From: Leptolyngbya sp. 'hensonii'
GTDB taxonomy: Bacteria; Cyanobacteriota; Cyanobacteriia; GCF-001939115
Direction: 5' to 3'
DNA length: 64,000 bases
Assembly (NCBI RefSeq): GCF_001939115.1
Contig: NZ_MQTZ01000047.1
Span: forward strand, 62,001-126,000
Below the pieces are notes generated by a model. It was not told the origin of the DNA and made no database searches. It saw nothing but the letters and a program-made list of their open reading frames with translations. This document shows positions 4,015 to 50,338 of the stretch, piece after piece (positions within the stretch are counted from its first letter, which is position 1; every line of letters starts with the position of its first letter). The position numbers were made by a program, and so were the translations under genes.

Positions 4015-4584
4015 TTCAAACTATCCTCTCAAACGTAGATTTTTAGCGTTGGCATTGTTAGTGTAGTTGCGGCCAAAATGTTTTGCATCCCTACCCTCTC
4101 TTCCTGCTCCCTATCCCCTGCGGGGACACTTTGTGAACGACTCCACCCAGGGAGCAGGACTGTAACCTGGCAAAAGAGGTTGCATGAAGGTGCATTAGGG
4201 ACGTTTATACCTTGTCTCTAGCCGAAATTGTGGCATCCAGAAAGCATAAATTTAATCGCGCCCACCTAATTAACATCGGCCAATTGAGTATTAAGAAAAT
4301 CTTATAACTCTCATCAGAAATCACAATCTTTCCGGCAACCCTCCAATCTCCAAGCTGTTGAAGAAGTTTAGAGATCCTTACAACTGAAATCAAAAATTTA
4401 GGCCAGAAAATCGTAAGATTTAGGCAAAAAATTGTAAAAAAAATCACAGAATAAAGGGGCTGAAGTGCTTACTATGAGGAAATAATGACTAATATTAAAA
4501 AATTATATAATCGCTCGTTATGAACAGCTTCATGTCCTTTTTTAAGCAAAGCTACTAAGGCATGAAATCCTGCTTCTTTTTTCC
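4015..4584. other. Divergent intergenic region upstream of cnfR
   Basis: 570 bases between the divergent TPR gene and cnfR. The left part carries a nested inverted repeat (4103-4158). The right part (about 4430-4540) is very AT-rich and is the likely promoter region of cnfR. An 80-codon antisense frame at 4205-4447 is rejected as non-coding. Confidence 0.55.
4103..4158. repeat. Nested inverted repeat
   Basis: The outer arms CCTGCTCCCT (4103-4112) and AGGGAGCAGG (4149-4158) are perfectly complementary. Inside lies a second perfect hairpin, TCCCC-TGC-GGGGA (4114-4124 and adjacent). The two-tier fold is unlike a simple terminator and may be a small repeat element or a structured leader of the leftward TPR gene, whose start is at 4014. 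Confidence 0.45.
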
Positions 4585-6183
4585 ATGCCATATAGTATTA
4601 CAAACCTATGTATTCGCTGTGATAGCTGCTTACCCCAATGTCCAACTGGGGCAATTAAGCTCGAAGGCGAGGATTACTGGATTGATCCGCTTTTATGCAA
4701 CGATTGTGAAGGCTACTACTCGGAGCCACAATGCGTCACCAGTTGTCCAACAGGTTCGCCAGTTCCCTGGCAAGCCAAGAAAGGACGATGCAAAACCAAT
4801 ATTAGAACTGCCACCAGTCCCAGTTTGTTTCCCGATGGCAAGAGCCATCCCTTCGCTTCAGCGATCGTGGTTTGGGAAGCCTGCAACGTTCTGGCGCAGC
4901 GCCAATCCCTGCCCTGGAAAGCAGACGAAGCGGATCGCCTTTATTATCAGCGGCACATCCATCAAGGCCAGGGCTCGATCGGTTTTCAGATCACCCATAC
5001 TCTGGATCCCCTCCCCCCCACCCCCCTGAGCAAGGAAGTAGCTCTGGCTACCCTTTCCACCTTTGATGTGCGATCGGCCTGTCTGCACCTGATTTATGCA
5101 GCGCATGCAACGGTTCTAGAGCGGCCCTGGGAACAGGAATTTATCATCAATGACCAGCAGATCGAAGAATACCTGGGTCTGGAAAAACGCAAGGATTTAA
5201 GCAAACCAGCCCGCCTGGCCTTGATCAAAGACTTGGTGCAACAACCCTGCCAAATTCAGGTCAGTATTGACTGGCTGGCTCAGGGCAGGGTCGCTGGATT
5301 CTCTTTGCGAGAGAGTCGTCTCTGGCATCTCCTGGAAGTTCAGCATCACTTTCAGGAAGATGACCTGGGCTGTAAGCACCTGGTTGGGTTGACCTTTAAA
5401 CTCAGAGCGGGACAATGGACCCAATATTTCCTGAATCAGCAGGGGTATCGCGATCGAACCGCCTTCTACCAATATGGCAGCCTACCTAAGCTGCTTCTGA
5501 GTACGGTCATGAGCATCTGGCAACAGCATGAAGGTGCAGCCCGGATGATGCTCTGGTTATTGTTCAAAGCCAAGGTCGGTCGAGAACAACGATTAACCGT
5601 GCCCACGCTGATGCGGGTTGCCTACGGAGAAGAGCGCATTCTGCATGCCTCTACCCATCGAGAACACCGCAAACGGCTGTTACGAACCTTTGAAAGTGAT
5701 CTGGAAGTTCTCAACCACCATGGGTTGAAACCAGTCTTTGACCCAGTTACTTACGCTCCTGAGATCCAACCCCTCTGGGCCAGACTGTCAGAACTACCCG
5801 ATGATGCCGATGCTGCCCTGGAGTTTTGGGTGAATGATGGGAGTGGTAGCACGCGCCTAACTGACGCAGCCCCTCGGGGCAAATGGAACCGATTAATGCA
5901 CGCCCGCATCCTGTATTTTGAACTCCCTCCCCAATGGAGCCGCCAACCTGCAGCGACAAACCGGAAGAAGCAACGATCGTCCCAACGCCGCACTAAAGCC
6001 AAGCCACAACTGACTCTCTCCGCTGAGGATGTAGTCAAGGCCCGTAAGAACTTGCAGTGGAGTCAGCGACAATTGGCCGAAAAAACCGGCAAAAGCCAGA
6101 GCTGGATCCGCGATATCGAGAACAATCGCTTCCGAGCCAAATTGGAAGACCAGGTTTTATTACGGAAGGTTTTGGGAATCTAA
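4585..6183 (+). CDS. cnfR: Transcriptional activator of nif genes CnfR (PatB-like)
   Basis: A 532-aa regulator with an N-terminal bacterial ferredoxin domain and a C-terminal helix-turn-helix. Eight cysteines form two 4Fe-4S motifs (C9, C12, C15, C19 and C38, C41, C50, C54). The last 60 residues hold a HTH_3/Xre-type motif (WSQRQLAEKTGKSQSWIRDIE). This architecture defines CnfR of Leptolyngbya boryana and PatB of Anabaena, which activate nif genes under low oxygen, presumably by sensing oxygen through the clusters. A basic linker (RKKQRSSQRRTKAK) precedes the HTH. No strong Shine-Dalgarno precedes ATG 4585, but the cysteine motif begins 8 residues in, fixing the start closely. It probably controls the nif genes upstream. 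Confidence 0.93.
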   Translation: MPYSITNLCIRCDSCLPQCPTGAIKLEGEDYWIDPLLCNDCEGYYSEPQCVTSCPTGSPVPWQAKKGRCKTNIRTATSPSLFPDGKSHPFASAIVVWEACNVLAQRQSLPWKADEADRLYYQRHIHQGQGSIGFQITHTLDPLPPTPLSKEVALATLSTFDVRSACLHLIYAAHATVLERPWEQEFIINDQQIEEYLGLEKRKDLSKPARLALIKDLVQQPCQIQVSIDWLAQGRVAGFSLRESRLWHLLEVQHHFQEDDLGCKHLVGLTFKLRAGQWTQYFLNQQGYRDRTAFYQYGSLPKLLLSTVMSIWQQHEGAARMMLWLLFKAKVGREQRLTVPTLMRVAYGEERILHASTHREHRKRLLRTFESDLEVLNHHGLKPVFDPVTYAPEIQPLWARLSELPDDADAALEFWVNDGSGSTRLTDAAPRGKWNRLMHARILYFELPPQWSRQPAATNRKKQRSSQRRTKAKPQLTLSAEDVVKARKNLQWSQRQLAEKTGKSQSWIRDIENNRFRAKLEDQVLLRKVLGI

Positions 6184-46373: not shown

Positions 46374-47990
46374 ATGAACCTGGATCCGAACCTTACCCAA
46401 CAGGGGAATATACTGATTGTCGATGATACCCCAGCAAATTTACAGCTCCTGTCCACAACCTTATCCGAAAGAGGATATGGGGTTCGATCTGCGCTAAGTG
46501 GTGCCCTGGCTCTAAAGTCTGTGGGGCTGAAGCCGCCGGATCTGGTCTTGTTGGATATCAGAATGCCTGAAATGGATGGCTATGAGGTCTGTCGCCGGTT
46601 GAAGGCAGATGAGAGGACTCGGGATCTGCCCGTCATTTTTCTGAGTGCTATTCATGAGACTTTCGATAAGGTTAAGGCTTTCGCCGTGGGTGGGGTAGAC
46701 TACATCACCAAACCGATCGACATTGAAGAACTGATTGCCCGCATTGAGAATCAGTTGAATATCTGTCGCCTGCAACAGCAACTGGCTGCACAGAATATCC
46801 AATTGCAGCAGGAAATCCAGGAACGGCGTCAGGCTGAAGCCAATTTGATCCAGAGTGAGGCCAATTATCGGACCCTGGCCTGCAACATTCCCAACTGCGC
46901 TGTGTTCCTCTTTGACCCAGACCTGCGCATTCTGGTCGCCGAGGGCGTAGAGCTGTCTGCGATCGGCCTGGCTCAGGAAGACCTGGAAGGCCGAACCTTG
47001 CCGGAACTCGTGGATCGACAGGCCTGCCTCCTGCTACAACCCTACTGCCTGCAGGCTCTGGCTGCAGAAGCGACCTCCACCGAATTGCCCTATCAGGAGC
47101 AGTTTTATCTGTTACAGACCACGCCTGTTTTTGATACCCGGGAACAGGTATGCGGTTGCACAGCCCTGCTCCAAAATGTCACAGCGCGTAAACGGGCTGA
47201 GCAGGAAATCTTAAAAACCTTAAAGCGGGAACAGGAGTTGGGAGAACTAAAATCTCGCTTTGTTTCTCAGGTGTCCCATGAATTTCGTACGCCTCTGACT
47301 ACAATTCAATCTGCAGCAGAGCTATTAGAACATTACAACTGGTCTATAGAAGCCAAGCAAGAGCGCTTTCAGCAAATTAAAACTGCGGTACATCATATGA
47401 CCCAACTGCTGGAAGATGTCCTGCTCATCGGTAAGGTAGAATCTGGTAACTTATGCCTGAAGCTAGAACGGTTTGATTTGAGTCAGCTCTGTCAGGCAGT
47501 GGTGGCAGAGTTATCCTCTACTTTGGGCATCGCCCACCATTTGAGCTTCACTAGAGAAGGTGAGCCAGTCCAGGGTGAATGGGATCGTAAGCTACTGCAG
47601 CAAGTGTTAATCAATCTTCTTGCCAATGCCATCAAATATTCCGCAGAGGGAAGTGAGGTGATCTTAAAATTGGACTTTTCGGACTCTGCGCGGGTCAGGC
47701 TGCAAGTGATCGATCGAGGCATTGGTATTCCAGCAGAAGATCAGGCAAATCTGTTTAAAATGTTCTATCGAGCTAGAAATGTAGGGTTTATTCAGGGAAC
47801 AGGGTTAGGGCTTGCCATTGTCAAAAACTGCATTGAATTACATCAAGGTGAGATCACAATTGCAAGTGAAATGAATCAGGGAACCGTCGTCACAGTCTGG
47901 CTACCGCTTAAACCTGAGGTTGCGACATCTCTGCAATGGGACAAAATGGCTATTACAACTCCGGCTTCCAGAAAGGTGGTTATGGGATGA
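46374..47990 (+). CDS. Receiver-histidine kinase fusion (REC-PAS-HisKA-HATPase)
   Basis: A 538-aa protein. The N-terminal receiver has its phosphoacceptor in LVLLDIRMPEMDG. A coiled coil (130-160) and a PAS-like domain (165-280) follow. The DHp domain has His302 (QVSHEFRTPLTTI), and the HATPase ends near 520 (VIDRGIGIP, GTGLGLAIVKN). The receiver probably accepts phosphate from another kinase and controls this one. The last codons overlap the start of the next regulator gene (ATGA at 47987-47990), so the two are coupled. A close paralogue lies at 48884. Confidence 0.92.
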   Translation: MNLDPNLTQQGNILIVDDTPANLQLLSTTLSERGYGVRSALSGALALKSVGLKPPDLVLLDIRMPEMDGYEVCRRLKADERTRDLPVIFLSAIHETFDKVKAFAVGGVDYITKPIDIEELIARIENQLNICRLQQQLAAQNIQLQQEIQERRQAEANLIQSEANYRTLACNIPNCAVFLFDPDLRILVAEGVELSAIGLAQEDLEGRTLPELVDRQACLLLQPYCLQALAAEATSTELPYQEQFYLLQTTPVFDTREQVCGCTALLQNVTARKRAEQEILKTLKREQELGELKSRFVSQVSHEFRTPLTTIQSAAELLEHYNWSIEAKQERFQQIKTAVHHMTQLLEDVLLIGKVESGNLCLKLERFDLSQLCQAVVAELSSTLGIAHHLSFTREGEPVQGEWDRKLLQQVLINLLANAIKYSAEGSEVILKLDFSDSARVRLQVIDRGIGIPAEDQANLFKMFYRARNVGFIQGTGLGLAIVKNCIELHQGEITIASEMNQGTVVTVWLPLKPEVATSLQWDKMAITTPASRKVVMG

Positions 47991-48757
47991 GGACTGGGAA
48001 TTCAACTACAAGTTTGAGCTGCAATCAGATGAAGAAAATTCTGGTAATTGAAGATGAGTGGCCTGTCCGTACCAACATTATAGATTTGCTGCAACTGGAA
48101 GGGTTTGAAGTGATCAGTGCCAGCCACGGACAGGCAGGCATTCAACTGGCTCAGGAACAGCTTCCCGACCTGATCATCTGTGATGTCATGATGCCCAAGA
48201 TGGATGGCTTTGAAGTACTCAAGACCCTCAGCCAGAATCCTTCTACCGCTGCCATCCCTCTAGTTTTTTTGACTGCCAAGGCGGAACGGAAAGATTTTCG
48301 CCAGGGAATGGAATTAGGAGCCTATGACTATCTGACCAAGCCCTTCACCAGGGCTGAGTTATTGGGGGCGGTACAGGCCCAACTAAAACGGCAGGAAGTC
48401 ATTACACGCTTATATGCTGCAGAATGTGAGCAAACTGAAATGCTGGCTAATCAAGTTCGGGATTTACAGCAATTCAATGACGCTCAAGACTTGCTCCTGA
48501 ACAATTTGATTCAAGAACTAAGGGAGCCTTTATCTAATATCAATATGGCGATGACCATGTTGCGGCAGGCGACATCTGAGGAACAGCGCGATCGCTATCT
48601 AAAGGTGTTGCAGGAGGAGTTTGTTCGAGAGATCACACTGTTAAACCAGGTTTCCGAATTGCAAAAATTTTTAACGCCGGAAAACACCAAGCTCCTGCGC
48701 CAGTTTAATCTGCTCCAGAGTGGGTTAGGACATAAATCTTCAGATCACAAACCTTGA
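47987..48757 (+). CDS. Response regulator with a histidine-less DHp-like domain
   Basis: A 256-aa protein. The receiver (about 15-135) has its phosphoacceptor in LIICDVMMPKMDG and ends with YLTKPF. The C-terminal part (about 160-225) looks like a kinase dimerisation domain (LLNNLIQELREPLSNINMAM), but the position of the catalytic histidine in HELRTPL is glutamine (Q176). There is no HATPase. It may dimerise with, or compete with, the true DHp domains of the flanking kinases. ATG 47987 overlaps the upstream stop and has AAAGGTGG before it; ATG 48029 is the alternative start, directly at the receiver. Confidence 0.88.
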   Translation: MRTGNSTTSLSCNQMKKILVIEDEWPVRTNIIDLLQLEGFEVISASHGQAGIQLAQEQLPDLIICDVMMPKMDGFEVLKTLSQNPSTAAIPLVFLTAKAERKDFRQGMELGAYDYLTKPFTRAELLGAVQAQLKRQEVITRLYAAECEQTEMLANQVRDLQQFNDAQDLLLNNLIQELREPLSNINMAMTMLRQATSEEQRDRYLKVLQEEFVREITLLNQVSELQKFLTPENTKLLRQFNLLQSGLGHKSSDHKP

Positions 48758-48883: not shown

Positions 48884-50338
48884 ATGTCTCTTTCCCCGGC
48901 AACTACTGACTACTTACACCGGCTCCTGATCCAAAATCTGGACCATTTTAAGTCTGCAGACTTGCCAAACATTTCTTGCCAGACTAGTCTGCCGCTCGAT
49001 CTGCCGACCCTGCTCCAGACCATCGCCTCAGAGGACAAGCAGGCTCTGGCTCTCAATCTAGAAGAACTGGCCTTCTCCCATCAGCAACTGGCCACTTTAG
49101 AGCCAGAAAACCAGTATCAACTGGCTGCAATAGAACAACAAATCTTCCAATTACTGGGGTTCCACAAGCCTCAACTTCGAGAACCGGTGATTCTGGTCAT
49201 TGATGATAACCCAGAAAATCTGTACCTGTTGAAGCGAACCCTGACTCAGGGTGGATATGATGTCCAAGTTGCTACCAATGGAGCGATCGCCCTCTCCTGC
49301 CTGCATCACATCATGCCAGATCTGATTCTCCTGGACATCATGATGCCCGACATGAATGGGTATGAGGTTTGTCAACGATTGAAGGCAGATCCCTCCTTTC
49401 AGGACATTCCCATCATTTTCATCACCGTCATGGACGAAATGGCCGATCGCATGAAAGCTTTTAGCAGTGGGGGGGTTGACTATATCACCAAGCCTTTCTC
49501 AATTCAGGAAGTCCTGGCCAGGGTGACCACCCAGATCAAAACCCGTAACCTGCAAAAGGAATTGCAGACCCGGAATGAGCAACTGCAACAGGAAATTCGT
49601 GCCCGCAAACGGGCAGAGGAAGAGGCTCTAAGGGCTCTGGCCAAGGAAAAAGAATTGAGTGAGTTGAAGTCTCGTTTCATTTCCATGGCTTCCCATGAAC
49701 TACGCACTCCTCTGACAACTATTCAATCCACCGTAGAACTGTTAGAGCACTACCAATGGACGGAAGTTGAACGGCTACAACGATTAGAGCAAATTCGAGA
49801 GGCCGTCCAGCATATGAATCATCTGTTGGAAGATGTGCTTCTGATCGGTAAAGCAGCCGTAGATAAAGTTCAACCCAAACCAGAATGGCTAGATGTGGTC
49901 CAGTTCTGTCAGGATCTGCTCGCAGGCATTCAACTCACGATCGGCAAATATCACCACATCCGCTTTTCCAGCCAGGCAGATGGGCTGTCAGTCTGGCTAG
50001 ACCCCAAGCTATTGCGTCAGATCCTTTACAATTTGCTGTCCAATGCCATTAAATACTCTGCTGAAGCAAGCAGAGTGGACGTTATTCTGACCCAATGGGA
50101 TCAACAACTGCTTTTGCAGGTTCGGGATGAGGGGATTGGGATTCCCCCAGAGGACCAGGAACGGCTGTTTGAAGCTTTCCACCGAGCAACTAACGTAGAG
50201 GCCATTTCAGGTACAGGGTTAGGACTGACGATCGTCAAACAATGTGTAGACCTTCAATCAGGGCAGATTACCCTGGAAAGCACTGTTGGTCATGGAACCC
50301 TGTTCACTGTTATCCTGCCCCTGCAGAAGGCTCCCTAA
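48884..50338 (+). CDS. Receiver-histidine kinase fusion (REC-HisKA-HATPase)
   Basis: A 484-aa protein. Residues 1-95 are a helical N-terminal domain of unknown type (LHRLLIQNLDHFKSADLPN). The receiver (about 103-225) has its phosphoacceptor in LILLDIMMPDMNG. A coiled coil leads into DHp with His271 (MASHELRTPLTTI), then HATPase (VRDEGIGIP, GTGLGLTIVKQ). The kinase half resembles that of the fusion at 46374 closely, which suggests duplication around the coupled regulator. It is convergent with the BaeS-like kinase, whose stop is 7 bases away. Confidence 0.9.
   Translation: MSLSPATTDYLHRLLIQNLDHFKSADLPNISCQTSLPLDLPTLLQTIASEDKQALALNLEELAFSHQQLATLEPENQYQLAAIEQQIFQLLGFHKPQLREPVILVIDDNPENLYLLKRTLTQGGYDVQVATNGAIALSCLHHIMPDLILLDIMMPDMNGYEVCQRLKADPSFQDIPIIFITVMDEMADRMKAFSSGGVDYITKPFSIQEVLARVTTQIKTRNLQKELQTRNEQLQQEIRARKRAEEEALRALAKEKELSELKSRFISMASHELRTPLTTIQSTVELLEHYQWTEVERLQRLEQIREAVQHMNHLLEDVLLIGKAAVDKVQPKPEWLDVVQFCQDLLAGIQLTIGKYHHIRFSSQADGLSVWLDPKLLRQILYNLLSNAIKYSAEASRVDVILTQWDQQLLLQVRDEGIGIPPEDQERLFEAFHRATNVEAISGTGLGLTIVKQCVDLQSGQITLESTVGHGTLFTVILPLQKAP

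Follow-up and report, generated by a model that had tools for sequence, protein, structure and literature searches.

We lean towards reading the response regulator encoded at 47987–48757 as descended from a REC-controlled histidine kinase and now kinase-dead, so that it would work as a REC-driven homodimeric switch with its helical bundle as a docking output. The gene lies in a stretch of 64,000 nucleotides from Leptolyngbya sp. 'hensonii' that was analysed as a whole (the window); the source genome assembly comprises 5.94 Mb in 77 contigs. The features of the locus are as follows.

46374–47990, + strand: upstream kinase, REC-PAS-HisKA-HATPase, motif SHEFRTPLT (Pfam).
47987–48757, + strand: response regulator gene, consisting of REC, signalling helix, His-less DHp and conserved tail, with no ATPase domain.
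48029–48379, + strand: REC domain (Pfam, 2.7e-29), with the phospho-Asp52 codon at 48182–48184 and the Lys104 codon at 48338–48340.
48350–48484, + strand: long signalling helix from REC alpha5 to the bundle, with 58 residues from Lys104 to Gln162 (AlphaFold2).
48485–48667, + strand: degenerate HisKA/DHp helical hairpin (Pfam, HMM, alignment, AlphaFold2).
48668–48718, + strand: conserved family tail FLTPENTKLLRQFNLLQ, where an ATPase domain would otherwise follow (alignments).
48884–50338, + strand: downstream kinase, REC-HisKA-HATPase, motif SHELRTPLT, 126 bases 3' of the regulator gene (Pfam).

The open reading frame 47987–48757 was confirmed, with its stop at 48757. Its ATG overlaps the stop codon of the upstream kinase gene by 4 bases (ATGA) and is preceded by AGGTGG 7 bases 5'; an alternative start, ATG 48029, is the position at which the homologues begin in the alignment. 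Both neighbouring kinases carry REC domains as well as intact HisKA and HATPase matches (Pfam). The overlap and these matches bear out the earlier note, in which the gene was placed between two REC-kinases and coupled to the first. The upstream kinase is the likely phosphodonor of the regulator REC domain; the other kinase lies downstream. No Pfam family matched the first 99 residues of that downstream kinase (48884–49180), at its N terminus.

The regulator matches Response_reg at 2.7e-29 (Pfam), and D52, T82 and K104 are present and conserved. HisKA (PF00512) was matched at 1.6e-4 (22.1 bits) by the whole protein and at 1.2e-5 (25.7 bits) by the C-terminal part alone, both below the curated cut-off of 26.9. 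An HMM built from 91 His-bearing DHp domains of ATPase-bearing proteins scored the C-terminal part at 48.3 bits. Among 2000 shuffles the highest score was 12.0, so that the match is not due to chance. The residue aligned with the His of HELRTP is Gln (Q176 counted from 47987, Q162 from 48029; codon CAA, 48512–48514). No HATPase match was found in the protein using Pfam, and the chain ends 28 residues past the hairpin. Alignment, HMM and Pfam thus agree with the earlier note in describing a DHp domain that has lost its phospho-His and is followed by no ATPase domain. With neither a phospho-His nor a CA/HATPase_c domain, the protein falls outside the HisKA kinases and the hybrid response regulators.

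AlphaFold2 predicted the full protein (mean pLDDT 83.9) as a REC domain followed by helices 108–180 and 184–214 and a short helix 217–225. The same hairpin was obtained from the C-terminal part alone (pLDDT 84.6), in line with the helical hairpin on which the earlier assignment depended. The continuous helix 108–180 joins REC to DHp as in hybrid response regulators. When the full model was searched with Foldseek, LvrB (PDB entry 8vc9) was among the matches, over 215–218 columns; HK853 ranked first for the C-terminal model, at an E-value of only 0.22, and the E-values for the hairpin alone were not significant. All 50 matches listed by VIA-align for the full model cover mainly the REC part. A comparison of profile A1 with solved structures returned protein A chains and kinases intermixed, with weak E-values.

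Homologues were sought in 39 related genomes, one named-genome collection and 386 genomes of the phylum. The named-genome collection contributed 27 loci. The titles of 25 name cyanobacteria or cyanobacterial genera; the remaining two, L104 and L105, are weak. In total, 63 distinct cyanobacterial proteins with REC and a DHp-like C-terminal domain and no ATPase domain were collected (short forms). At least 35 of the 386 phylum genomes, in 16 family handles, encode one. Among the matches listed from these 386 genomes, proteins long enough to bear an ATPase domain mostly align with the profile no further than about position 76–90. One Oscillatoria locus (L085) holds two short forms, at 1341–2054 and 4566–5285, 2.5 kb apart.

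The residue at the His site is Q in 31 short forms, E in 17, I in five, D in two and V in two; G, S, T, R and H occur once each, and one sequence has a gap. His is therefore absent from 62 of the 63. After reduction to 45 representatives of less than 80% identity, Q or E was found in 36 of the 44 that have a residue at this position. Parsimony on the tree gave 21 changes at the site, which ranks 63rd of 89 positions (59 sequences; L091 was dropped as frameshifted, L146 as partial, and L063 and L064 for their foreign REC). Whether Gln is conserved among homologues, as the earlier note had proposed checking, thus has a divided answer: Q or E occupies the site in 48 of 63 short forms, but the position is among the more changeable ones. 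Gln was rejected as a conserved functional residue, since I, V, G, S, T, R and D also occur. Because the residues vary, with so many changes, the trait common to the family is loss of His and not possession of Gln.

The sole His-bearing short form (L139, 3739–4563; HELRQPLSN, codon CAC) also has no ATPase domain. It lies within the clade, adjoining the window protein and L059 on the tree, and this position fits a one-base return from Gln. It is the one member that would suit a phosphorelay element borrowing a catalytic domain in trans; with His missing from all the others, such a role for the family is scarcely credible. The gene of L139 adjoins a REC-GGDEF-EAL gene. In another short form (L065, 3325–4209) the phospho-Asp of REC is lost too and replaced by His, with insertions, giving a pseudo-receiver joined to a pseudo-DHp.

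The residues that follow the His site bear on a different proposal, namely that the His-less bundle, tethered to REC, keeps an E/DxxN phosphatase element and drains phosphate from receiver domains, as a phosphatase or phosphate sink. After the His site, 54 of 63 short forms have an acid (D or E), and the residue at +4 is N in 28 of 63. In HisKA kinases, phosphatase activity is reported to require Thr/Asn, the acid being required for kinase activity alone (PMC3510030). That role of Thr/Asn lends the proposal some support (PMC3510030), but the +4 residue is Glu in the window protein, D in 12 others and R in nine, and the phosphatase Asn is less widely conserved than the kinase-specific acid. We regard such an activity as unlikely.

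Constraint is evident elsewhere in the short forms. The phospho-Asp site of REC is D in 59 of 63 and the Lys is kept in 61 of 63. In the alignments, a tail with the consensus LLTPENxxLLRQFNLL takes the place of the ATPase domain, and its L215, P217, E218, N219 and L223 rank with the better conserved positions. For the DHp part, dN/dS was 0.00–0.18 in 16 of 18 close pairs and undefined in two; this holds also for lineages in which I, V or G/S occupies the His site. These substitution patterns indicate that the DHp bundle is under purifying selection, and a pseudogene was rejected on the strength of values of at most 0.18. Loss of both the His and the ATPase domain, together with the free variation of the His site, could also be expected of a decaying REC-kinase remnant that does nothing beyond a single-domain receiver. 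Such decay is very improbable in view of the dN/dS values, the conserved tail and the spread over 16 family handles. As many cyanobacteria keep it, the family probably represents a real type of regulator, as yet uncharacterised, rather than a broken gene. A frame break does occur in the REC part of one locus (L091, 4480–5264, Nostoc sp. LEGE 06077), from mutation or assembly error.

In 36 of 45 representatives the REC Lys and the His site are 51, 58 or 65 residues apart, which is the expectation if the phase of a coiled coil is kept. When helix-length changes are counted on the tree, only four of 11 amount to exactly seven residues, so the seven-residue quantization partly reflects shared descent. 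In REC-kinase relatives the same distance is 40, 47, 54, 68 or 75 (20 of 34), 42 (10 of 34) or 65, 72 or 86 (four of 34). Rec-controlled kinases are likewise reported to favour multiples of seven (PMC13269768). The hydrophobic-phase signal along the helix was too weak for a heptad register to be assigned.

The origin of the family points to REC-DHp-CA hybrid response regulators of the LvrB type, since ATPase-bearing relatives adjoin the short forms in the REC+DHp tree; ancestry and family are well supported by these comparisons. The short forms cluster in this tree except for L034, of the L063/L064 type, which has REC of another kind. The 34 REC-DHp-ATPase proteins in the tree carry His in 30 cases, E in two, D in one and Q in one. 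A paralogue in the source genome (L024, 2179–3312) is REC-DHp-HATPase with Asp at the His site, and it follows a kinase gene. Its ATPase G1 box is degenerate (SNEAD), and it belongs to a second cluster (L024, 2179–8783) that encodes REC-PAS-kinase, REC-GGDEF-EAL, a CBS/PAS-type kinase and REC-DHp-HATPase. Three further ATPase-bearing REC-DHp proteins (L070, 1814–2971; L073, 3492–4610; L074, 4044–5162) have Q or E for His and are additional pseudo-kinases.

The DHp of the regulator is nearest to the subfamily STVSHELRTPIxNMKMAI, found in ordinary kinases of the source genome, and not to the DHp domains of the neighbouring kinases. In this parent kinase subfamily (L021, 858–2606; L022, 825–2591; L023, 1178–3625) the His is kept and N.A/G takes the position of the expected G1 box DxGxG; the ATP site may thus be unusual.

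LvrB of Leptospira resembles the regulator in that REC is joined to DHp by a coiled-coil helix and in that its gene adjoins that of a kinase which phosphorylates its REC, as the regulator gene also adjoins a kinase gene; it differs in being an active kinase with His161 and a CA domain (PMC5863495, PMC13269768). Both are missing from the regulator, which has a conserved tail of its own. In LvrB, phosphorylation of REC is described as changing the REC dimer, forming the alphaS coiled coil and freeing the CA domains (PMC13269768). Since the present family lacks CA domains that could be freed, bundle and tail are most simply read as an output that acts by docking. In the switch that we favour, the neighbouring kinase would phosphorylate the REC Asp, the REC dimer would rearrange, and the coiled-coil helix would relay the change to the four-helix bundle of a homodimer; that the bundle is homodimeric is assumed from the DHp fold. 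Bundle and tail, unable to carry phosphate, might then act as a switched docking surface. Its clients would most likely be partner receiver domains, as DivL binds DivK~P, or a locally encoded effector, for instance the REC-GGDEF-EAL proteins whose genes stand beside some family members (Pfam-confirmed in three loci, L024, L139 and L158). No REC-GGDEF-EAL gene was found beside 47987–48757 within the window. It is possible, if doubtful, that the family forms a cyanobacterial response-regulator class in which the dead DHp bundle and tail serve as a phosphorylation-gated, phosphate-free hub capturing receivers or other clients.

The neighbouring kinases were also examined across the family. An ATPase-bearing kinase gene lies directly upstream in 33 of 63 short forms, at gaps of −55 to 287. 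In the sequence seen, the other 30 have a contig end (four), an opposite-strand neighbour (16) or another same-strand neighbour (10). A HisKA-type hairpin was measured in 27 of the 33 upstream kinases, with a length of 38 (12) or 40 residues (15); four have a HisKA_2 motif (L063, L093 and L142 by Pfam, L064 by motif only) and two were unmeasured by pattern. At the same 33 loci the regulator hairpin has 37 residues in 23, 34 in two and 38 in one, with seven unmeasured. The short forms paired with HisKA_2-type kinases in L063 (4097–5107) and L064 (4375–5385) have 336 residues and another REC type; their extra C-terminal part resembles a helix-turn-helix, with a weak MarR match (E 0.11).

These neighbours bear on the suggestion of the earlier note that the pseudo-DHp and the DHp of a neighbouring kinase form mixed dimers, altering kinase or phosphatase activity. 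The overlap of the regulator and kinase genes is in its favour, as is the precedent of a pseudokinase acting with a paralogous kinase, ChrS–HrrS (PMC9491836). A mirror-tree comparison of regulator and kinase DHp domains gave a weak signal (partial r 0.205, p 0.063) for 19 of the 33 pairs, these being representatives of less than 80% identity with all four domains found. Against it, some partner kinases belong to HisKA_2, partner hairpins of 38 or 40 residues face a near-constant 37 in the regulator, the regulator DHp is nearest to a different DHp subfamily, and for nearly half of the short forms the sequence seen shows no kinase gene immediately upstream. The differing hairpins tell against a mixed bundle conserved through the family and favour the ordinary arrangement, with REC phosphorylated by the kinase. 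The evidence does not support mixed dimers in a general role, and we consider them improbable, although they might form in this one organism.

Rec-controlled kinases and pseudo-histidine kinases are already known. DivL of Caulobacter retains an ATPase domain, carries Tyr where the His would be and is not known to have a REC domain. The regulator shares with this type the replaced phospho-His but not the retained CA domain. DivL is alike in having a kinase core without kinase activity that serves binding and not catalysis, and unlike in having PAS sensors (PMC4211667). The ChrS pseudokinase of evolved C. glutamicum is likewise a kinase-dead DHp protein working through a partner, and its heterodimers with the paralogue HrrS were shown by two-hybrid analysis; it arose by a laboratory frameshift in the CA domain, in contrast to the long-kept natural family described here (PMC9491836). 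CdgK/CdgS of Anabaena was considered and set aside, the literature showing a different system. No description of a His-less, CA-less REC-DHp family was found in the open-access literature searched, and papers on thermophilic cyanobacteria and domain surveys gave no lead. Slr1759/Slr1760 is a possible relative; no domain information on this pair was found in the same literature.

Two-component pseudokinases are known mostly as single cases, and here a family has been retained throughout cyanobacteria. Relatives with the same REC-DHp architecture that still bear the ATPase domain persist beside it, a few of them also His-less. The family draws attention to proteins whose annotation may be simply that of response regulators. 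At about 240 residues, the protein suits study of signal transmission from REC to bundle, and the family allows one to ask what a DHp bundle does once catalysis has been removed.
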